Assembly (NCBI RefSeq): GCF_000717655.1
Contig: NZ_JNZY01000075.1
Location: 1-13,928 of the forward strand
DNA length: 13,928 nt
Source of the DNA: Streptomyces katrae
GTDB lineage: Bacteria > Actinomycetota > Actinomycetes > Streptomycetales > Streptomycetaceae
Direction: 5' to 3'
Part shown: one piece after another, positions 89-13,165 of the stretch
How positions within the stretch are numbered: the stretch's first letter is position 1
Layout of the letters: each line of letters opens with the position of its first letter
Translations under genes and position numbers: made by a program
The notes under the pieces: model-generated
What the model was told of the DNA's origin: nothing
The model's input: only the letters and a program-made list of their open reading frames with translations
Databases searched by the model: none

Positions 89-841
89 TCAGGCGGGGAT
101 TACGTAATCCAGAACGTAGCTGGCGGAGTCGAGGACCATCTCGTTGACCTCGACGACGCGACCACCCTCCTCGGCTGCGAAGCGGTGGATCTGGATGACC
201 GGAGTACCGCGAGCGATCTTCAGGAGCTCCTTCTCCTCCTTGCTCGGCATTCTGGACCGCACCTCTTCACGGAAGACCTTCGGCGCATGTCCAAGGTCCT
301 TCAGCCGTGCGTACAGTCCGCCTGGTCCCGTGTCTTCCTGCGCAATCGCCGTGCCATCGGCGATGTCAGCCGGGATGTACGAGATCGCCTTGAGGACGGG
401 CTTGCCGTCGACGGCGTAGCGGCGGCTGCGCATCCAGACCGGCTGGCCAGCTTCCATGCCAAGCATGGCCGCCACGCGCGCGTCAGCGTCCAGGCGGTGC
501 ACCTGTACGTCGAGGGGTACGGGCTTCTTGTCGACGATGTCGACGCTCCACATGGATCGGCCGGCCCCCCAGACCTCTGCAGACAGGCGGGCGTTCGCGT
601 CGCGGCGGATGCGCTCGAATTTCCGCACCTTCGTCGGCGCCCCCTGGCTGCTATGTGTCAGCCCCTCGTCGCGCAGCACCTGAAGCGCCTTCCAGGCGGT
701 GTCGCGGCTGACGCCGTGAATCGCCATCAGCTCCTTCTCGCCGGGGACCTTCTCGCCGGGTGGCAGTTCGCCGCTCTCGATTCGTGCGCGGAGCTCATCG
801 GCGATCGCTTCATATCCGACGTCGCGCTTCTTGCTGGTCAA
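89..841 (-). CDS. GntR family (HutC subfamily) transcriptional regulator with UTRA domain
   Basis: This is a DNA-binding repressor or activator of the GntR/HutC type, about 250 aa from the chosen start, the usual length for the family. Residues about 8-75 form the GntR winged helix (YEAIADELRARIESGELPPG, then ELMAIHGVSRDTAWKALQVL). Residues about 95-245 match the UTRA ligand-binding fold, including an MRSRRYAVDGKPV strand region and a VVEVNEMV strand near the end. I chose the TTG at 841 because GGGAGG (846-851) sits just upstream and the winged helix begins directly after it. The frame stays open to a GTG at 919, but that codon has no ribosome site and lies inside the operator. The 912-927 palindrome upstream points to autoregulation. 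Family assignment is firm; the ligand is unknown. Confidence 0.9.
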   Translation of the reverse strand: MTSKKRDVGYEAIADELRARIESGELPPGEKVPGEKELMAIHGVSRDTAWKALQVLRDEGLTHSSQGAPTKVRKFERIRRDANARLSAEVWGAGRSMWSVDIVDKKPVPLDVQVHRLDADARVAAMLGMEAGQPVWMRSRRYAVDGKPVLKAISYIPADIADGTAIAQEDTGPGGLYARLKDLGHAPKVFREEVRSRMPSKEEKELLKIARGTPVIQIHRFAAEEGGRVVEVNEMVLDSASYVLDYVIPA

Positions 842-911
842 GACACCTCCCGGCGGGGTCGCTCTCGTGGGCAGTCGAGGCGCTGGCCCGGCGGAACCAC
901 CGAACGGCTTG

Positions 912-927
912 ACTTCCACGTGGAAGT
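912..927. promoter_or_regulatory. GntR-type operator O2 in the divergent control region
   Basis: A second exact copy of ACTTCCACGTGGAAGT lies about 70 bp upstream of the TTG start of the GntR gene and about 155 bp upstream of the rightward GIY-YIG gene. A TTGACT hexamer at 909-914 overlaps its left end and could be part of a -35 element, but I see no well-spaced -10. It is best explained as the autoregulatory operator. Confidence 0.75.
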
Positions 928-1033
928 TAGGGACCGTCTATTCCAGTAGTTCCACAGGTACTCACAGCCACTGACCTGCAAGATGCATGCCAGCGGGCTA
1001 TGCCTGCCTGCCCTCGGGACAACTGTACGCACA

Positions 1034-1049
1034 ACGTCCACGTGGAACA
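1034..1049. promoter_or_regulatory. Degenerate operator O3 before the rightward gene
   Basis: The sequence ACGTCCACGTGGAACA keeps the 10-bp core TCCACGTGGA (1037-1046) of the two perfect copies and differs at 3 of 16 outer positions. It ends 32 bases before the GTG of the rightward GIY-YIG gene, so a protein bound here could block that promoter or its early transcript. The weaker match suggests lower affinity and thus graded control. Confidence 0.55.
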
Positions 1050-1081
1050 CCGCGTGGGAGCAGCGCAGCTCAAGGAGAAGC

Positions 1082-1705
1082 GTGAGCGACGAGGTCGTGT
1101 ACGTAATCGGCACGCCGACCAGCACGGTCGTAAAGATCGGCCGCACAACCCGCTTGGCTAAGCGCCTGGCCGACATTCAGCGCATGTCCCCGGTGCCACT
1201 CGAGGTGCTGTGGACCCATCCCGGGGGCCATGATCTGGAGACGAATCTGCACCGCCAGTTTTCCGGCCTTCGTTCCCATGGAGAGTGGTTCACGTTCCAA
1301 GCTGACCCCGTGGCAATGGTCGCCTGGGCCGTAGAAAGTCAACCGTGGGATCGTCCGAAGCTCAGTCTCCAGAAACGCAAGCCGGCCAAGGCGCGACCGA
1401 AGGTCGTCCCAGTTCAGCGCCCATCGTTCACGCCCCGACCCGAAGTGGTCGAAGCATTGGAACGAGTGATCACCGAACTGCATGCCATCAAAGACCCAGT
1501 TCAGCGGTTCGAACGCGCGGGCCAGGTCGAGGAGGAACTAAAGCAAACCTTCCTTGAAGCTCAGCAGCAAATTGTCGCGGGCCTCAAAGCCGAAGGGCGT
1601 ACCTGGCAGGAGGTCGGCGCAGAGCTTGGCTTCTCCGGGCAGCGCGCACATCAACTCTCACTTGGTAGCCGGCCCAAGTACGGCAAGGCGGCAACTGCCC
1701 AATAG
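1082..1705 (+). CDS. GIY-YIG family protein of the T5orf172/MUG113 type with C-terminal HTH
   Basis: The protein has 207 aa. Residues 5-72 match the T5orf172/MUG113 branch of the GIY-YIG superfamily: VYVIG (6-10), VKIG (17-20), an Arg-Leu pair at 28-29, SPVPLEVLW (36-44), LETNLH with Glu53, and HGEWF (66-70). Residues about 120-170 are helical and charged. Residues 171-193 (TWQEVGAELGFSGQRAHQLS) look like a helix-turn-helix, so the protein is probably a DNA-binding nuclease or nuclease-derived regulator. I chose the GTG at 1082 because AAGGAG (1072-1077) precedes it; the frame is open from 983 but has no ribosome site there. Operator O3 lies just upstream, so the GntR protein is the likely regulator. 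Domain assignment is sound; the target is unknown. Confidence 0.85.
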   Translation: MSDEVVYVIGTPTSTVVKIGRTTRLAKRLADIQRMSPVPLEVLWTHPGGHDLETNLHRQFSGLRSHGEWFTFQADPVAMVAWAVESQPWDRPKLSLQKRKPAKARPKVVPVQRPSFTPRPEVVEALERVITELHAIKDPVQRFERAGQVEEELKQTFLEAQQQIVAGLKAEGRTWQEVGAELGFSGQRAHQLSLGSRPKYGKAATAQ

Positions 1706-4834: not shown

Positions 4835-5188
4835 TCAGGGCTTCTGGCGGGCCCTCATGGCCGCCTTGTGGGCCTGCTCCCCGGCCCAGCAGCCGTGCGG
4901 GCAGTCCTTCGGGTCCTCGCCGCGCTTCCGGTGCGCCTCGTACCCGGCGTGATCCCCGTGGCGTTGAGGCCGACCGTCGAGGAGGCCAGCCCGGCAGGCG
5001 AGGAAGACGGCGTGAGCCTGGCTCCTCGCACCCAACTTCTTGATCGCGCTGGCTGCGTAGTTCTTCACCGAGGCGTGGGCCAGAACCAGCTCGGCGGCGA
5101 TTTCCTGGTAGCTGCCGCCCTCCGAGATCCCGCGGAGAACCTCGACCTCGCGATCGACGAGAGGGAGCCCGAAGCGTGCGGCCCTCAC
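4835..5188 (-). CDS. Orphan LuxR-type helix-turn-helix protein
   Basis: The protein has 117 aa. Residues 9-68 are a LuxR/GerE DNA-binding domain: VDREVEVLRGISEGGSYQEI, then AAELVLAHASVKNYAASAIK and KLGARSQAHAV. There is no receiver or ligand domain before it, so it is an HTH-only regulator. The C-terminal 45 residues are basic and contain Cys96-x-His98-x-Cys100 in a PKDCPHGCWAGEQAH stretch, a possible small metal site that is unusual for LuxR-type proteins. The GTG start overlaps the stop of the upstream DUF4326 gene by 4 bases. Phage regulators of this stand-alone type may control late genes, but no target is visible here. Confidence 0.85.
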   Translation of the reverse strand: MRAARFGLPLVDREVEVLRGISEGGSYQEIAAELVLAHASVKNYAASAIKKLGARSQAHAVFLACRAGLLDGRPQRHGDHAGYEAHRKRGEDPKDCPHGCWAGEQAHKAAMRARQKP

Positions 5189-5613
5189 GACTCGCCGCCG
5201 TACATCGGCTCGTAGCCGTCGTTGACCCGCTGGAAGTCAACCCGTACCCGGATCCGCTCGATGCGCTCGGCGAGTTCCTCCTGCGGCGTGGCGGCCCAGC
5301 GGAGCAGGACGTCGGCGTGGCAGACCTGGTCGAGCCGGCAGGTGCAGGCAAGGTCTTTGCCGCGGAGCGTCGGAAGCGCGGCCAGGATCTGCTCACGGCG
5401 AGCGTCGCCCTCGTCGGTGGCCCAGCCGAACCGCCCGCCTCGGAGCCACTGCTCGAAGAACTCGACGGCTGCGGCATGCGGGTCGTGGTAGCCCATCTCC
5501 TGCAAGGTGGCGATCTTTGATGGGCTTCCGAAGCGGCTAGGCCTGCTGACGATCACGGCGTTGTCGGGCTTGCGCCAGCCCTTGGTCCGGCGGCGCTGGA
5601 TTCGGTTCGGCAT
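5185..5613 (-). CDS. DUF4326 domain protein (copy 1)
   Basis: The protein has 142 aa. Residues 7-105 match DUF4326: RRTKGWRKP (8-16), a strand with VSRPSRFGSP (22-31), the helix AAAVEFFEQWL (47-57), and the signature RGKDLACTCRLDQVCHADVL (84-103) with Cys90, Cys92, Cys98 and His99. The signature probably binds metal or forms the active site; the family has no established function that I know of. The last 35 residues are a charged helix beyond the domain. The ATG at 5613 lies six bases after AAGGAG; a GTG directly before it is too close to the ribosome site. It is coupled by GTGA to the LuxR-type gene. A second DUF4326 gene lies at 6706-7170. Confidence 0.88.
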   Translation of the reverse strand: MPNRIQRRRTKGWRKPDNAVIVSRPSRFGSPSKIATLQEMGYHDPHAAAVEFFEQWLRGGRFGWATDEGDARREQILAALPTLRGKDLACTCRLDQVCHADVLLRWAATPQEELAERIERIRVRVDFQRVNDGYEPMYGGES

Positions 5614-5645
5614 CACGGTCTCCTTGGGTGGTGGATGATCGGGGT

Positions 5646-5674
5646 GGCCGCCTCCGATAGCCCCGGAGGCGGCC
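5646..5674 (-). terminator. GC-rich hairpin between the deoxyribosyltransferase-like and DUF4326 genes
   Basis: A perfect 11-bp stem (GGCCGCCTCCG, 5646-5656, with 5664-5674) closes a 7-base loop. On the minus strand it starts 8 bases after the stop at 5682, so it fits a terminator or attenuator. It lacks a T-run, so readthrough into the DUF4326 gene is likely. Confidence 0.5.
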
Positions 5675-5681
5675 GTCCACG

Positions 5682-6071
5682 TCACGGGGTGGGGTCGACC
5701 TCGGGGTGCGTGAACTGCACCGGCTTGCCGAGGGACCGGGCGTAGGCGATCTCGGCGCGGGTGGAGTCGCCGATGTAGTCGCCGACGACGAGGACCGAAT
5801 CCGCGAGGCGGATCTTGGCCCGGTGCAGGTCGTCCAGGTTGGCCTTGCCGGCTTCCGCGACTTCGGGGTCAGACCACGACGGGTGCGGGGACTTCATGTC
5901 GACGCCGGGCCGGACGACGATGTAGCCGCTCCAGGTGAGCTCACGGTCCTTGTCGGCCATCGCGTCCATGAAGCGGGTGCTGCCGCAGATGCAGATGATC
6001 TCGGGGATGCCGAGGCTGGTCTTGGCGCTGGTGAGCTTCTCTTTCGGGGTGAGGAGTTCGGGGTACGACAT
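5682..6071 (-). CDS. DUF4406 / nucleoside 2-deoxyribosyltransferase-like protein
   Basis: The protein has 129 aa. After a short N-terminal tail it shows a Rossmann-like nucleotide-binding fold: IICICGSTRFMD (25-36), where G-S-T-R-F is the phosphate or nucleoside loop, then the helix region KANLDDLHRAKIRLADSVLV and GDYIGDSTRAEIAYARSLGK (97-116), where Glu107 sits where deoxyribosyltransferases place the catalytic glutamate. The family either transfers deoxyribose between bases or binds nucleotides. With the MazG-like gene downstream, nucleotide salvage or modification is plausible. The ATG at 6071 has GGAGG six bases upstream. The exact reaction is not shown. Confidence 0.85.
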   Translation of the reverse strand: MSYPELLTPKEKLTSAKTSLGIPEIICICGSTRFMDAMADKDRELTWSGYIVVRPGVDMKSPHPSWSDPEVAEAGKANLDDLHRAKIRLADSVLVVGDYIGDSTRAEIAYARSLGKPVQFTHPEVDPTP

Positions 6072-6383: not shown

Positions 6384-6709
6384 CAGGCAACCTTTCGGGC
6401 GGGTCGGCGGTTTGCCGGTTGGCGGATGGCGGCGGCGAGGTCGGCGTAGTGCCGGGCAGCAGCGGCAGGGCTGGTGGCCGAGGTTCGGAGCCGGGCGGTG
6501 GGGCGCCGGCCGCCACCGAGGCAGGGGGTGCGGTCCGGGTCGCCGGGGATCCGGTGGACACGGAGGGTGCCGTCGGCGTTGAGGGCTCGGGACTGCCCGC
6601 ACCAGGAGCAGGAGGCGCGGGGGGTGTACGGGTTGGCGGTGCGGGGTCGGGGGCCGCCGAAGCTGCCGTCGGGCCACTCCTCGGCAAGGACCCGCTCAAG
6701 GGCGCTCAC
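6383..6709 (-). CDS. Small putative zinc-binding phage protein
   Basis: The protein has 108 aa. The start (VSALERVLAEEWPDGSFGGP) is followed by Cys34-x2-Cys37, His52 and Cys63 (CSWCGQ, VHRIPG, TPCLGG), which could form one zinc site. The C-terminal third is a basic Ala/Arg-rich helix (AAAARHYADLAAAIRQ) and tail that may bind nucleic acid. The GTG start overlaps the stop of the upstream DUF4326 gene by 4 bases. I recognise the general type (small actinophage protein with a CxxC...H...C set) but no function. Confidence 0.78.
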   Translation of the reverse strand: MSALERVLAEEWPDGSFGGPRPRTANPYTPRASCSWCGQSRALNADGTLRVHRIPGDPDRTPCLGGGRRPTARLRTSATSPAAAARHYADLAAAIRQPANRRPARKVA

Positions 6710-7170
6710 CGGTCGCCCTCGATGCCATTGGCCACCTCGAGCAGTACGTCGGCGTGGCAGAGCTGACCGAGGGCGCACCGGCAGGCGAGGTCGTAGCCGG
6801 CGAGTTCGGCCCGAACGGCTTCAGCTGTGAGCCGAGGCATTCCCTGCCTCCAGACGAAGAGCCGGGCGGTGGGCTCGGTGAGGGCCTTGCGGTACAGGTC
6901 GACGCACTCGCGGCGGGTCATGTACCGGCTGGTGTGGCTGGTGATCCGGCCGTCGGCGTGCTTGTACGGGTGGTGGTGGCCGTCGGCGCTGATGCGGGTC
7001 TCCAGCTCCCAGGGGCTGCCGTCGAGGGCGGGGACTCGGGCGAGTGCGCTGGTGGTCCGCCAGCGCCAGGGGGTGGCGTACTCGCTGCCGGGGCCGACAT
7101 AGATCGTGTTCGGGGGCGGGCGCCAACCCCGGACGGGCGGGCGGTGGATGCGGCACGGGGTGAGGTTCAT
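6706..7170 (-). CDS. DUF4326 domain protein (copy 2)
   Basis: The protein has 154 aa. It shows the DUF4326 ends: CRIHRPPVRGWRPPPNTIYV (6-25), GSEYATPWRW (28-37), DLYRKALTE (91-99), and the signature AGYDLACRCALGQLCHADVL (124-143) with Cys130, Cys132, Cys138 and His139. It carries an insert of about 40 residues (45-85, WELETRISADGHHHPYKHAD) that copy 1 lacks, with a His cluster that could bind metal. The two copies are clearly paralogous but far apart in sequence, so this is not a recent duplication. The ATG overlaps the stop of the zinc-finger gene (ATGA). Confidence 0.86.
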   Translation of the reverse strand: MNLTPCRIHRPPVRGWRPPPNTIYVGPGSEYATPWRWRTTSALARVPALDGSPWELETRISADGHHHPYKHADGRITSHTSRYMTRRECVDLYRKALTEPTARLFVWRQGMPRLTAEAVRAELAGYDLACRCALGQLCHADVLLEVANGIEGDR

Positions 7171-7481
7171 GCGGCGTTTCCTCCGGCTTCGATACGGCGG
7201 GCGGGGTGGATGTCTCCGAGGGGTCGGCCGTCGGGGGTGCGGCATTCGGTGCCGGGGGCGACCTGGCAGGTGGTGCAGACGGCGGTGGCGATGGCGTGGG
7301 CTTCGAGGCGGGCTGCGCAGGGGGCGAGGCGTTGTACGCGGGTCCGGCCGGTGCGGGTGGTGCAGCGCATGTCGGGGGCGGCGGCGCAGTGCGGGCAGCG
7401 GACGGCGAGCGCGGGATGCCGGGGCGGGCGGCCCTGGCGGAGGCTGGCGGGCATCGGGGCGGAGCGGGGGCGGTCGGTCAT
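7167..7481 (-). CDS. Tandem phage zinc-finger protein
   Basis: The protein has 104 aa with a basic, Pro-rich start and two zinc fingers of the kind found in actinophage and Streptomyces proteins (C-P-x-C-x-A-x-P-x-x-x-C-R-T-x-x-G-R, then H-x-A-R). Finger 1 is Cys29-x2-Cys32-x7-Cys40 with Cys55 in place of the last His. Finger 2 is Cys69-x2-Cys72-x7-Cys80 with His92. Such fingers are believed to bind DNA. It lies directly downstream of the DnaC-like gene, overlapping it by 4 bases (ATGA), so it may help at the replication fork or act in regulation. The family pattern is clear; the role is inferred. Confidence 0.82.
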   Translation of the reverse strand: MTDRPRSAPMPASLRQGRPPRHPALAVRCPHCAAAPDMRCTTRTGRTRVQRLAPCAARLEAHAIATAVCTTCQVAPGTECRTPDGRPLGDIHPARRIEAGGNAA

Positions 7482-8221
7482 GCCGCACCTCGCCGACGCC
7501 GGCTCGGGCCTTCCATCGGAACGATGTGGGTGATCTCGCGGAGCCTGTCCGCAATTCGCTCCCCGAGCTTGTCGGTGAGGTCGGGGCCCTGCTTGACACC
7601 GTTCCTGTCCACGGCGGAAAGGGCGGGCAAGTTGCTGGTGATCAGCGTCGGCAAGGATTCGTTGTAGCGCTCGTTCAGGAGCCGGTACGTCGCTTCCTCG
7701 GTGAACTCGCTGATCTTCTCGGTGCCGAGGTCGTCGATCAGAAGCAGCGGGATCTTCTTCAACCGCTTCACCTCGTACTCGGTGCCGCGCTCGCTGCCGC
7801 CAGGTCGCATCAGGGCGTACATGTCTGGGGCGGTGATCGCGATGACCTCGTAGCGCTCGGGCCCGGCTTCGGCGATGCGGCGCAGGGCGCCGTAGGACTG
7901 GTGGGTCTTTCCGGTGCCGAACGATCCGGTCAGCAGCACGAAGCCGGCGGAGCGGGGATCGACCGCGACCCGGTCGGCCCAGGCCTGGAGGTCGGGGTGG
8001 GTGCAGCTGGCGTTCTGGTACCGGTACGGGGTGGCCGACTCCCAGCGAGTGAGTGCCCAGTTGGCACGGCGCTTGCGGTGGTACTCCGGGTGGCCGGGCT
8101 CGTCTTCGGCGGGGGCGTCGTCGATCGGGCCGGGCTCGACGTGGTCGAGGCCGCGGGCGGCAAGGGCTCGTTGGAGTCGGGCGGTGAGGTTGCCGCCGAA
8201 CGCGGGACTGGGTTCGGGCAT
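7478..8221 (-). CDS. DnaC/IstB-like AAA+ helicase loader
   Basis: The protein has 247 aa, the usual size for DnaC-like loaders. Its AAA+ core has Walker A GSFGTGKT (99-106), Walker B LLLIDD (159-164), sensor 1 TSN (195-197), and GERIADRLRE (220-229) with arginines at the finger position. The N-terminal about 90 residues, with an FGGNLTARLQRALAARG helix, would bind the replicative helicase. It begins 2 bases after the stop of the replisome-organizer gene, with no good ribosome site, so translation is coupled. It would place host DnaB on DNA opened by the organizer at the iteron region, as lambda P does; this is inferred. IstB of insertion sequences has the same ATPase, but there is no transposase gene beside it. 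Confidence 0.9.
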   Translation of the reverse strand: MPEPSPAFGGNLTARLQRALAARGLDHVEPGPIDDAPAEDEPGHPEYHRKRRANWALTRWESATPYRYQNASCTHPDLQAWADRVAVDPRSAGFVLLTGSFGTGKTHQSYGALRRIAEAGPERYEVIAITAPDMYALMRPGGSERGTEYEVKRLKKIPLLLIDDLGTEKISEFTEEATYRLLNERYNESLPTLITSNLPALSAVDRNGVKQGPDLTDKLGERIADRLREITHIVPMEGPSRRRRGAA

Positions 8222-8223
8222 GG

Positions 8224-9204
8224 TCAGAATCCGTTCGCGTAGTTGGCGTTCGGGTTGAGCCGGAATGGCTGGTGCTTGCGGCTGTCGACGACGTGGAGGT
8301 CGGGCCGGCCGTCGGGCGCAGGCTCGGGGTATTCGTCGTGGTAGCGCTCGTTGGCGAGCCAGTTGGCCGGGTAGCTCGTGTACTGCTGGTCCTTGCCGGC
8401 AACTTCTCGGGCGTAGGACTGCGCCTTGGAGACCATGAGGGCGGGCTCGACTCCGCGGCGGATGGCAGCGATCCACTCGGTCTTGGCCTTAGCCATGTGG
8501 ATCTTCTTGGGGTAGTTGCTCCAGAAGGCACCGAAGGCGGAGAGATGATCCTCGTCGGCTTGTTGGCTGCCGATCACGGCGACGGAGGAAGAAGTGTTCT
8601 TCAACCCCGTTTTCTTCTCCCAGTGTTCTTCTTTAGACGTACCACCGTGTGGTACGTCGGAGTGAGCTGCGCGGATGCCTGTTTCCGCAGGTGGGACCGA
8701 CGTGCCAGTAGGTGGTACGTCGGGCTGAGCTGCGTCGATGCCTGTTTCCGCAGGTCGCTCCGACGTACCAGCGTCTGGTACGTCGGTGGCGCCCTCCGAC
8801 GTACCACCGTGTGGTACGTCGGACTGACCTGCGGTTTCTTGCGTTTGTGCAGGTGGGACCGACGTACCGGCATGTGGTACGTCGGGCTGAGCTGCGGAAA
8901 CGTCCTGCACGACGAGCACGGTGGCGTGCAGGCCGCCCTCAAGGAGCTCGCGTTCGGACTGCAGGTAGCCGTACTTCTTCAGCTCGGCGAAGGCGGCGCG
9001 GAACTGGCGGCGGCCGGGGCTGTCCTTGCCGTGCTTGGCGACCGAGGCCTGCCACATGTCGTCGCAGGTGGTCTTCCACCCGTCGGGCCGGCTGAGGAGC
9101 TCGACGAGGATGCCGCGGGCCATGTGGCTCATGCGGTCGTCACGCACGGTGGCGTTGGGGACCTGAAGGAAGTCCTTCGTCAGCCTGCTGTGGCGGATCC
9201 TCAC
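8224..9204 (-). CDS. Replisome organizer / phage replication initiator with internal iterons
   Basis: The protein has 326 aa. Residues 1-95 are a winged-helix DNA-binding domain (ATVRDDRMSHMARGILVELL, then FRAAFAELKKYGYLQSER). Residues 104-192 form a Pro/Ala/Gly/Thr-rich linker with five D-V-P-x-x-G-T-S blocks (starting at 108, 129, 141, 162 and 183), encoded by five DNA palindromes. Residues 222-292 are the conserved C-terminal domain of phage replication proteins (FGAFWSNYPKKIHMAKAKTE, then QYTSYPANWLANERYHDEY). It should bind the origin and recruit the DnaC-like loader encoded next. The start is a GTG with only a weak ribosome site, inside a 32-bp sequence repeated at 9824-9855. Domain order matches lambda O. 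Confidence 0.88.
   Translation of the reverse strand: MRIRHSRLTKDFLQVPNATVRDDRMSHMARGILVELLSRPDGWKTTCDDMWQASVAKHGKDSPGRRQFRAAFAELKKYGYLQSERELLEGGLHATVLVVQDVSAAQPDVPHAGTSVPPAQTQETAGQSDVPHGGTSEGATDVPDAGTSERPAETGIDAAQPDVPPTGTSVPPAETGIRAAHSDVPHGGTSKEEHWEKKTGLKNTSSSVAVIGSQQADEDHLSAFGAFWSNYPKKIHMAKAKTEWIAAIRRGVEPALMVSKAQSYAREVAGKDQQYTSYPANWLANERYHDEYPEPAPDGRPDLHVVDSRKHQPFRLNPNANYANGF
8589..8635. other. AT-rich tract next to the iterons (candidate DNA-unwinding element)
   Basis: The bases 8581-8635 are about 55% A+T by my count, against roughly 30% around them. The tract is rich in T and C on the plus strand and contains the decamer AGTGTTCTTC twice (8593-8602 and 8622-8631) with a TTTTCTTCT run between. 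It directly abuts the first palindrome and lies on the side of the helicase-loader gene, where lambda also has its AT-rich element. Codon choice is relaxed here (Lys, Asn and Glu codons). Unwinding function is inferred. Confidence 0.6.
8636..8883. repeat. Five palindromic iterons inside the initiator gene (candidate replication origin)
   Basis: Five 23-bp units lie at 8636-8658, 8699-8721, 8762-8784, 8798-8820 and 8861-8883. The consensus has 10-bp arms GACGTACCAC and GTGGTACGTC around 3 bases, mostly CGT. Units 1 and 4 are perfect and identical; unit 3 is perfect with a compensated change (ACCAG/CTGGT); units 2 and 5 have two arm mismatches each. Spacings are 63, 63, 36 and 63 bp, all multiples of three. 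The spacers of units 1-2 and 2-3 share 19 identical bases (8674-8692, 8737-8755), so the array grew from a 63-bp tandem unit. I infer binding sites for the encoded initiator, that is, an origin within the gene. Confidence 0.8.
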
Positions 9205-11768: not shown

Positions 11769-12365
11769 CTAGAGCGGCGGCGGGACCGTGGGGGCCGCCA
11801 GCCCGAGCTGGGCGAGCACGGCAGCGATCTGTTCGGGGCTCAGTGCGGGCGTTGCTGCAGGGGACTGCGGTGCGCTCGCGGCCGCTGCCACGGGGGGATG
11901 CTTGACCGGCTCCGGAGCCATCAGCTCGGCGTTGGCGGCAGTGACGTAGCGTGCGGTGTACTGCTTCGGCGGGTTCTTCTTCGGGTTGGGCTGGGCGCCG
12001 TCCGCCGTGTACGTGACGGTCAGGTGCCCGCCCTCTTCCAGCCCCTCGGCCTTCGCCGTCTTCAGTGCGGCCTGGACGGCGGTTTTCATCTGACCCTTGA
12101 TGAAGAGGCGCCGGATGCCGTCGTCGTCGCTGATCTCCGGGTCGCGCTCTCCGGTGGCGAGGGTGACGACGATCTGCCAGCGCGGCTTGCCGTCGGCCCA
12201 GTACAGGGGCTCGTCGGTGTCGTAGTCGCGCTGCTGCTCGACGGTCGGTTTGCCGACGATGCGCCCAGCGTTCTCGTAGCCGAGGACGGGGAATTTGGCT
12301 GAGGGGGGACCGCCGCCGCCCATGAGGAGGTCGTCGGCGCTCGGCGGCTGGTGGGGTGTGGTCAC
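11769..12365 (-). CDS. Possible phage single-stranded DNA-binding protein
   Basis: The protein has 198 aa. The middle (residues 25-140) is strand-rich: LGYENAGRIVGKP, then DEPLYWADGKPRWQIVVTLA with TGERDP, RRLFIKGQMKTAVQAALKTA, GGHLTVTYTADG, and NPPKQYTARY. This resembles a family of actinophage proteins that usually sit beside a Cas4-like nuclease and are sometimes annotated as ssDNA-binding. The last about 55 residues are a Pro/Ala-rich linker ending in SPEQIAAVLAQLGL, a short helix that could be a partner-binding tail; there is no acidic SSB tip. The GTG has AAGGAG upstream and overlaps the nuclease stop (GTGA). Fold and function are inferred from order and pattern only. Confidence 0.6.
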   Translation of the reverse strand: MTTPHQPPSADDLLMGGGGPPSAKFPVLGYENAGRIVGKPTVEQQRDYDTDEPLYWADGKPRWQIVVTLATGERDPEISDDDGIRRLFIKGQMKTAVQAALKTAKAEGLEEGGHLTVTYTADGAQPNPKKNPPKQYTARYVTAANAELMAPEPVKHPPVAAAASAPQSPAATPALSPEQIAAVLAQLGLAAPTVPPPL

Positions 12366-13165
12366 GGGGTCGGCTCCTTGGCGATGAGGGCTTCGAAGGA
12401 AGCGCCGGGGTTGGGGTCGGGCTTGCCGGGACACCCCTGGGCGAGGTCGTCGCTGCCGGGCTTGAGCCACGGACACCAGACGCACGTCGGTTCGTCGGCG
12501 ATCGGGATCAACGCCCAGCTGTCGGGGTTCGCGGCCAGGTCCAGCGCGGTGGCCTGTTCGCGGATGCGGTCCAGGCGGGCAAGTGCGTCGACTGCGATCT
12601 GCCGGTCGTAGGGCTCGGACCAGACGTGGACCTGGAGTTCGTGGTGCCGGGCGATGAAGGTGATTGCGACCCGTGCGGGCTTCCGGCCGGCGTTCTCCTG
12701 GCCCATCCCGTAGATGTGGCCCTGCACGCGGTACTTGGGGCCCGGGCCCTGGCGGCGGTATCGATCCAGCGAGCTGACGCCGACGAGCTTCCAGTCGTTG
12801 TTCAGCGCGGCCGCCCGGTCGTACAGGTCTGCCGTGCCGGCCATGTCGTCCCGGACGGTGACGCGTTCTTCGATCAGGTAGCGAGGCTCGCCGCCCGTCA
12901 TCGACGTCTGGCGGCGCTCGAAGGCCTGCGCCATCCACATGTGGAAGCCGGTCCCGATGATCGCGGCGATCGGGTCGCGCTCCGTGTTGGACTCCGCGAC
13001 GCCGAGCATCTTGTACGTCAGCTGTCGCTCGCAGGGTTCGCCGGCCTCGCTCGGGCCGAGGGACCGCTGCAGAGAACGGGCCGAATTCCGGTCGGCGTCG
13101 ATGATGAACTGCGCAATCTGCTCGGCGAGCTGCTCGCTGTACTCGTCGTTGCCGGTGGCGATCAC
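12362..13165 (-). CDS. Cas4/RecB-like PD-(D/E)XK exonuclease with Fe-S cysteines
   Basis: The protein has 267 aa. Nuclease motifs are present: His75 in GTGFHMW, Asp113 in GTADLYD, Asp124-x-Lys126 in NNDWKLVG, and Gln148/Tyr152 in YRVQGHIYGMG, the full metal-binding and catalytic set of RecB/Cas4 nucleases. Four cysteines, Cys45 (GEPCERQ) and Cys228, Cys231 and Cys245 (TCVWCPW, QGCPG), are placed as in Cas4 and AddB, where they hold an iron-sulfur cluster. It should degrade or resect DNA ends. There is no CRISPR array or cas1/cas2 here, so a phage recombination or replication role is more likely. The GTG start overlaps the upstream stop by 4 bases. Confidence 0.88.
   Translation of the reverse strand: MIATGNDEYSEQLAEQIAQFIIDADRNSARSLQRSLGPSEAGEPCERQLTYKMLGVAESNTERDPIAAIIGTGFHMWMAQAFERRQTSMTGGEPRYLIEERVTVRDDMAGTADLYDRAAALNNDWKLVGVSSLDRYRRQGPGPKYRVQGHIYGMGQENAGRKPARVAITFIARHHELQVHVWSEPYDRQIAVDALARLDRIREQATALDLAANPDSWALIPIADEPTCVWCPWLKPGSDDLAQGCPGKPDPNPGASFEALIAKEPTP

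Follow-up and report, generated by a model that had tools for sequence, protein, structure and literature searches.

Does a prophage of Streptomyces katrae carry its replication origin inside the gene for its own initiator? The window (the whole stretch of DNA that was analysed, 13,928 nucleotides) contains a gene of a phage exonuclease family (phrog_1674, 12362-13165, E 2.9e-65) and members of other phage families, all on the initiator's strand. Because of these families, and because relatives occur among viral sequences, the element is taken to be a prophage. The reading favoured here, to which a probability of about 85% is given, is that the origin of this Streptomyces-type prophage lies within the initiator gene: the N-terminal domain of the protein would bind palindromes in the gene, an AT-rich tract would melt and the C-terminal domain would recruit a helicase loader. 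The genes and domains concerned are as follows.

8224-9204, minus strand: initiator gene, 326 amino acids, matching the replication initiation protein profile phrog_270 (E 2.2e-24)
8905-9204, minus strand: N-terminal domain, residues 1-100, predicted winged helix-turn-helix
8227-8565, minus strand: C-terminal domain, residues 214-326 with helices in 214-284 (AF2 blocks in 221-290 have mean pLDDT 91-95), found behind six N-terminal types
7478-8221, minus strand: DnaC-like helicase loader, 247 amino acids, matching phrog_50 (E 1.3e-32)

The initiator aligns with phrog_270 over residues 9-301. The loader gene starts 2 bp behind the initiator stop, and its longer open reading frame (7478-8476) scores 41.6 bits with the IstB_IS21 profile (cut-off 24.1); together with phrog_50 this places the gene downstream of the initiator among the DnaC-like loaders. 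Among the 120 initiator homologues listed, those with a named organism are from Streptomyces, apart from one from Streptosporangium. Elsewhere in the window, DUF4326 was found in two minus-strand open reading frames (5185-5685, E 3e-19, and 6706-7599, E 9.3e-12), and a T5orf172/MUG113 protein (983-1705, plus strand) adjoins a GntR-UTRA regulator (89-919, minus strand).

The linker between the two end domains is predicted by AF2 to be disordered. No match to HTH_36 (PF13730) above the curated cut-off was obtained in the N-terminal domain of the window initiator itself. In the Pfam scan, 22 of 65 type A members (the types are described below) matched HTH_36 weakly (best E 0.045) and one type F member scored above the cut-off (31.8 against 25 bits); HTH_36 was the commonest Pfam match in the set, though a weak one. 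Neither the lambda O family nor the RepA_N domain was matched by the 65 members scanned at E up to 1. None of the NCBIfam profiles was matched by the initiator, Foldseek gave no structural match at E 0.001, and the single solved structure suggested by sequence (E 0.079) was rejected as not credible. Two of the 65 homologues matched Phage_lambda_P weakly (best E 0.026). It is a guess that this match is located in the C-terminal domain (8227-8565) and reflects a shared loader-contact fold; the domain is a candidate contact to the helicase loader.

Five 23-bp palindromes lie in frame within the initiator gene, as the earlier note had claimed, and encode its D-V-P-x-x-G-T-S repeats. In gene order, and without strand, these iterons are:

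8861-8883: iteron 1
8798-8820: iteron 2, a perfect palindrome
8762-8784: iteron 3
8699-8721: iteron 4
8636-8658: iteron 5, a perfect palindrome, adjoining the AT-rich tract

Relative to GACGTACCAC-N3-GTGGTACGTC there are 0, 2, 2, 0 and 2 mismatches in the copies at 8636, 8699, 8762, 8798 and 8861, respectively. In 200 shuffles of the window there were zero matches at up to two mismatches. No other copy came to light in the 8.58-Mb host genome, where there was no sixth palindrome at up to three mismatches (reversed control 0). Two details of the original description stand only in part. The proposed 63-bp spacing holds for three steps and fails for one, which is 36 bp (63, 63, 36 and 63 by coordinate), and the 10-bp arms are formed by ten perfect pairs per arm in two of the five iterons and not in the other three.

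Palindromic sites are typical of dimeric repressors, and the winged-helix fold predicted for the N-terminal domain is common and seen in repressors too. The palindromes might therefore be operators of a protein that is mainly a DNA-binding regulator and that, by stopping transcription inside the gene, keeps its own operon repressed, with replication starting elsewhere. This is unlikely, as no site was found upstream of the gene or elsewhere in the genome at up to three mismatches, the protein matches replication initiation families, and two features fit an origin, namely the AT-rich tract that follows the array and the DnaC-like gene.

The same palindrome was sought in relatives, as had been suggested, and was found inside homologous genes, for example in 21 genes and in five of 392 genomes drawn from the genus. 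The consensus GACGTRCC-N7-GGYACGTC is present with zero mismatches in 20 of these 392 genomes. In five of the 20 (G000, G016, G191, G305 and G354) it lies inside the initiator gene; these five include all three multi-site genomes and are the genomes with at least 56% identity over the N-terminal half. The remaining 15 have one stray site each, and a reversed control pattern gave one site in each of five of the 392 genomes. At 40 to 46% N-terminal identity (G194, G310 and G372) there was no site within the gene, G310 having a stray site on another contig. Similarly, every gene whose best segment was at least 51% identical has at least one site, and genes at 28 to 39.5% identity have none inside, so that distant helix-turn-helix proteins were rejected as carriers of the site. 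Three genes at 40 to 48% identity (L101, L103 and L104) are without sites among the matches listed.

The number of iterons varies. Of 120 protein homologues, 116 have at least three repeats and four have one repeat only, and a lone palindrome was seen in at least one full-length gene (P0018, the same as L026, also L091, L106 and L110, perhaps one strain). Either several iterons are not strictly required or such copies have decayed.

Comparison of relatives also defined the symmetry of the site. Twenty-two genes whose N-terminal identity is 50% or more contain 88 in-frame sites at up to five mismatches; the spacing between them is 63 bp in 41 cases and 36 bp in thirteen. Inner pairs 9/15 and 10/14 are paired at no more than the shuffle rate (53 distinct sites, 22 genes), and the symmetric part is GACGTRCC-N7-GGYACGTC. 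Where an iteron borders a 63-bp spacer, the dyad extends further out to CC...GG (41 distinct units), an extension that iteron 5 does not have towards the AT-rich tract.

Perfect palindromes with short centres could fold, and the iterons might then act as hairpins (cruciform DNA, single-strand hairpins or mRNA stem-loops) rather than as protein sites. Pair 4/20 does covary weakly (p 0.011), and double changes that keep the symmetry occur in single copies (L013 and L027). However, the other ten of the 11 arm pairs are not above shuffles at 0.05 in the 53 distinct sites, the lowest p among them being 0.085 (3/21), and 14 of the 53 have an A-C mismatch at pair 6/18. With no arm covariation save that of pair 4/20, the idea of hairpins is largely rejected and is considered very unlikely. 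Largely independent variation of the arms is better explained by a pair of half-sites bound by a symmetric protein than by a hairpin, and sites read by the initiator are the preferred interpretation of the array.

The 63-bp spacers are not neutral. They contain a second conserved element (P2), a partial dyad of the form ACCTGC-N16-GCAGGT. The distance from its centre to that of the iteron on either side is 31.5 bp, by arithmetic three helical turns at 10.5 bp. P2 and the tract behind the array are placed as follows.

8827-8854, minus strand: P2 between iterons 1 and 2, of the ACCTGC-N16-GCAGGT type
8728-8755, minus strand: P2 between iterons 3 and 4, right arm imperfect
8665-8692, minus strand: P2 between iterons 4 and 5, right arm imperfect
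8589-8635, minus strand: AT-rich tract, candidate unwinding element

In its strict form, which was chosen on these same units, P2 occurs in 17 of 41 units, whereas 200 shuffles gave 0.34 on average and never more than 4. Codon bias is 2.3 to 2.9 bits in the three 63-bp spacers compared with 1.5 to 2.6 bits in the iterons (17 genes, 3 to 8 columns per stretch), and is not extreme (0.41) in the spacer of the 36-bp step; the background for these values is the two end domains, whose own 0.43 and 0.28 are low partly by construction.

An AT-rich tract with a repeated decamer had been described behind the iterons, and this was confirmed: AGTGTTCTTC (sense GAAGAACACT) occurs twice, at 8593-8602 and 8622-8631. 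Among the 30-mers of the gene, the one richest in AT begins at the very end of iteron 5 and extends into the tract. In 63 of 67 genes with the same C-terminal domain the corresponding 30-mer starts at -260 to -20 relative to the anchor of that domain, and in 62 at -153 to -56. The order of binding domain, iterons, AT-rich tract, C-terminal domain and DnaC-like gene, also part of the first description, is borne out by coordinates, profiles and the structure model. The locus thus shares with the lambda O type of organisation repeated in-frame sites within the initiator gene that are conserved at the DNA level, and an AT-rich tract beside them on the loader side.

Conservation of the amino-acid repeats (at least three in 116 of 120 homologues) would also be expected if selection acted on the protein, as a structural DVPxxGTS linker, and the DNA repeats merely followed. 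Codon choice in the repeats is, however, extreme and opposite to that in the rest of the gene. In the 21 site-bearing genes, Val in the motif is encoded by GTA 50 times out of 74 and by GTC not once (0/74), whereas outside the motif GTA makes up 18 and GTC 153 of 315 Val codons; for Pro, CCA is used in 71 of 95 cases inside the motif versus 41 of 458 outside. The 21/22 split in this comparison was made by possession of a site and is no independent result.

Synonymous codons were also shuffled within each gene, which keeps both protein and codon usage. In 500 shuffles of the window initiator the number of reverse-complement 8-mer pairs rose no higher than 73, and the gene itself has 216 (0/500 reach the observed value); the palindromy of seven other window genes was reached by 79 to 443 of 500. 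As controls, lambda O was reached by 3 of 500 shuffles for palindromes and 0 of 500 for direct repeats, and lambda P by 127 and 188. Taken by themselves, direct repeats say less, being high in other window genes too (dnaC 0/500, GntR 5/500 and the open reading frame 983-1705 8/500). The DnaC-like gene (7478-8221) has 35 direct 8-mer repeats against a maximum of 34 in 500 shuffles, its palindromes not being in excess.

Selection on the protein alone is rejected by these codon tests and seems extremely improbable: shuffles that preserve the protein never attain the observed palindromy, the linker is predicted to be disordered, and the linkers of other N-terminal types encode unrelated peptides. 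Codon choice points instead to selection at the DNA level. Relatives that keep the protein repeats while silent changes destroy the palindromes had been named as evidence against an origin, and the opposite was seen, the palindromes being kept with codons that are otherwise rare.

Among 92 unique genes with the same C-terminal domain, 37 beat all 100 codon shuffles. Type A contributes 11 of its 12 genes to these and type F 6 of its 28; the test performs weakly in type F and in a number of type E genes. Twelve distant non-lambda phage or plasmid initiators were given 300 shuffles each, and only that of Brevibacterium phage Rousseau beat all in both tests. For palindromes, the observed value was reached by 1 of 300 shuffles in Whack, by 5 in Yvonnetastic and by 76 or more in the other nine. 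For direct repeats, Pointis, Yvonnetastic and an internally duplicated S. zaomyceticus plasmid gene beat all 300, Terij, Clawz and Pyei1 were near the top (2, 5 and 6 of 300) and the rest were weaker. As most of the distant initiators are unexceptional, in-gene palindromic iterons are not general across the wider family. The initiator gene of phage Rousseau (L087, 2000-2776) has strong in-gene palindromic repeats around ATGCGAATCGCAT. Shuffles that preserve the protein may help to find hidden in-gene origins, with the proviso that they are weak for some types and for most distant initiators.

The search with the C-terminal domain drew in genes with different N-terminal parts. From the 92 unique genes, 67 were typed by an N-terminal motif, and 25 that could not be typed were dropped before counting. 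The C-terminal domain of the window initiator is also found behind five N-terminal types besides the one seen there, making six in all, and every type has a palindrome of its own in the linker:

Type A (12 genes): GACGTACC-N7-GGTACGTC
Type B (4 genes): GGGTCCGG-N5-CCGGACCC
Type C (2 genes): TCAGTGTC-N11-GACACTGA
Type D (6 genes): GGGGTCCG-N5-CGGACCCC
Type E (15 genes): GGCTCCTTC-N1-GAAGGAGCC
Type F (28 genes): GTCACGGA-N7-TCCGTGAC

At least two palindromes of the gene's own type (up to three mismatches) are present in 63 of the 67 genes (A 11/12, E 12/15, the other types all), and at least two of a foreign type in one gene only, a type C gene with type B sites. As the consensuses were read from the same gene set, and those of C and E re-chosen later, the agreement within types is partly by construction; the near-absence of foreign sites is not. 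Sequence comparison of the N-terminal domains clearly links types B and C (1.6e-18) and gives values between 1e-7 and 0.06 for other pairs; for type A no relatedness to the others was detectable (best E 0.23).

Conversely, the type A N-terminal domain and its iterons also occur with other C-terminal parts (L027-L031, L045 and L092, the last of which looks like L030), and the F..FW motif of the window's C-terminal domain is present in 88 of the 120 protein homologues, fewer than the 116 with repeats. The iterons thus go with the type of the N-terminal domain and not with the C-terminal domain. Such an association is expected if the N-terminal domain reads the iterons, and at the sequence level it supports this, with adjacency alone explaining part of it. 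On a tree of the C-terminal domain (112 columns, 27 of 62 inner branches open) the types require 18 changes, compared with a minimum of 5 and a mean of 34.7 for shuffled labels. As judged from this tree, N-terminal types appear clustered and yet far from single origins.

The joint between the two halves could be placed in two of 12 pairs compared. The DNA of L134 (type F) and L111 (type B) is 90.7% identical between ATAAAGACTCTTCT and a point close to the end of the gene, and that of L150 (type F) and L183 (type D) is 90.4% identical from AAGACTCTTCTTC onward; each alignment starts within the AT-rich sequence that follows the iterons. For the remaining ten pairs the main similarity sets in 3 to 55 bases ahead of the C-terminal anchor, likewise past the iterons, and one of the pairs compared, L094 and L109 (types C and B, with related N-terminal domains), shares an additional 29 bases at the gene start. 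Own-type palindromes, tree discordance and joints together indicate that the N-terminal domain and iterons act as an origin cassette that can be exchanged; it appears that a recognition domain and its DNA target sites are swapped between related phages as one unit. The lambda record carries two recombination marks behind the fourth iteron in O (39157 and 39165; L210 558-567), a place that resembles the joints here, which is a lead only.

A DnaC-like gene is a regular partner of these initiators. Of the 67 genes, 64 had at least 500 bases of room (three had less), and in 58 of these 64 such a gene was detected downstream by a profile made from the window loader together with 11 open reading frames that lie downstream of initiators in the set. 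A different gene stands directly behind the initiator in L110, L121, L133 and L184, and likewise in L008, which has little room. The replacement genes searched (L110, L133 and L184) all match phrog_8924, and that of L110 also weakly matches the helicase-loader family phrog_2289 (E 0.00058); the replacement gene is possibly an alternative loader. No DnaC-like gene was found within 2.2 kb downstream of L161 and L166, despite room.

Iteron arrays in plasmids can serve both initiation and partition or incompatibility, and the array could on such grounds be a partition or incompatibility site instead of an initiation site. Two profile searches, each covering ten window proteins, revealed no recognisable partition gene, and array, AT-rich tract and loader gene match the order of the lambda origin; a partition site is scarcely plausible here, and initiation is the function preferred.

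Published in-gene origins, as described in excerpts of the papers cited, follow the same logic. In lambdoid phages the origin consists of iterons and an AT-rich tract in the middle of O (PMC7466680), and in phage P27 silent changes in the iterons abolish plasmid replication from the origin (PMC7466680). In-frame deletions in the AT-rich region leave lambda O able to complement (PMC6022878), so that the stretch encoded there is not essential in the protein. Like lambda O-P, the window has iterons in mid-initiator, an adjoining AT-rich tract and a loader gene next (PMC7466680; record NC_001416), and lambda O also stands out in the codon-shuffle test. Unlike lambda, which has four 18-bp iterons starting 20 to 24 bp apart, the window has five palindromes of at least 23 bp, 63 or 36 bp apart, plus P2; its loader is DnaC-like and not lambda P, and there is no Pfam match to the lambda O family.

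The Streptomyces linear plasmids pSLA2 and pSCL1 (1996) reportedly have iterons inside rep1, a 'phage-like' origin and a helicase-like partner gene behind. On this description they resemble the window in having iterons inside a Streptomyces initiator gene with a partner behind. In Streptomyces plasmid pWTY27, RepA binds an inverted repeat in the iteron region (PMC3583192, excerpt). RepA of the mycobacteriophages Miko and Rachaly, whose prophages are extrachromosomal, has an N-terminal helix-turn-helix, and its authors thought the origin to be immediately upstream of or within repA, where they saw no repeated motifs (PMC7157519, excerpt); the window initiator is alike in its predicted N-terminal helix-turn-helix and differs in having a repeat array.

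A parallel for the exchange is found in RepA_N plasmids as excerpted from PMC5703833. In pSK41 Rep an N-terminal winged-helix domain binds four boxes in the central part of rep, the middle of the protein, encoded by ori, is a linker that tolerates deletion, and the C-terminal domain binds host primase (PMC5703833). In the natural chimera pPR9 the N-terminal domain and origin were exchanged and the C-terminal domain was kept (PMC5703833); its new N-terminal domain is a putative helix-turn-helix of pfam13730 (PMC5703833), the HTH_36 family that is also the commonest, weak, Pfam match in the window family. The window differs from RepA_N plasmids in having no RepA_N match, a phage setting, a DnaC-like partner and palindromic iterons, and from pPR9 in having six types exchanged many times compared with the one kind of chimera described in that excerpt (PMC5703833).

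The novelty claimed in the earlier note is accordingly divided. In-gene origins are known (lambdoid phages, PMC7466680; pSK41 Rep, PMC5703833), as is the joint swap of domain and origin (pPR9, PMC5703833). Searches of open-licence PMC literature on Streptomyces or phage in-gene origins, RepA_N, lambda O and pPR9 gave no recognised description of the window family, the six types, P2 or the exchange. Compared with the known systems named above, what is new is the lineage, the sites, the six types and the repeated exchange.

From the sites, their conservation, a codon bias that fits selection on DNA, the association with N-terminal type and the gene order, we infer protein binding, dimers, melting, loader contact and origin activity itself. 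The N-terminal winged-helix domain, probably as dimers, would bind the GACGTRCC-N7-GGYACGTC palindromes, which are mostly in helical phase (63 bp being six turns) with P2 midway between them. The assembly on the iterons would melt the AT-rich tract directly behind the array, and the C-terminal domain would recruit the DnaC-like loader, product of the next gene, which would load the host helicase. The linker protein with its DVPxxGTS repeats would be mainly a by-product of the DNA code.

These results extend in-gene origins to a sizeable family of Streptomyces prophages. More tentatively, the temperate phages of Streptomyces may draw on a pool of at least six interchangeable origin cassettes, which recombine through the AT-rich joint onto a common helicase-recruiting half; a single crossover would then change replication specificity while the fit to the host replisome is kept. 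The combination of a single helicase-recruiting half with six recognition halves that each have separate sites amounts to a natural experiment, through which origin specificity, prophage incompatibility and the evolution of replication modules become directly testable.
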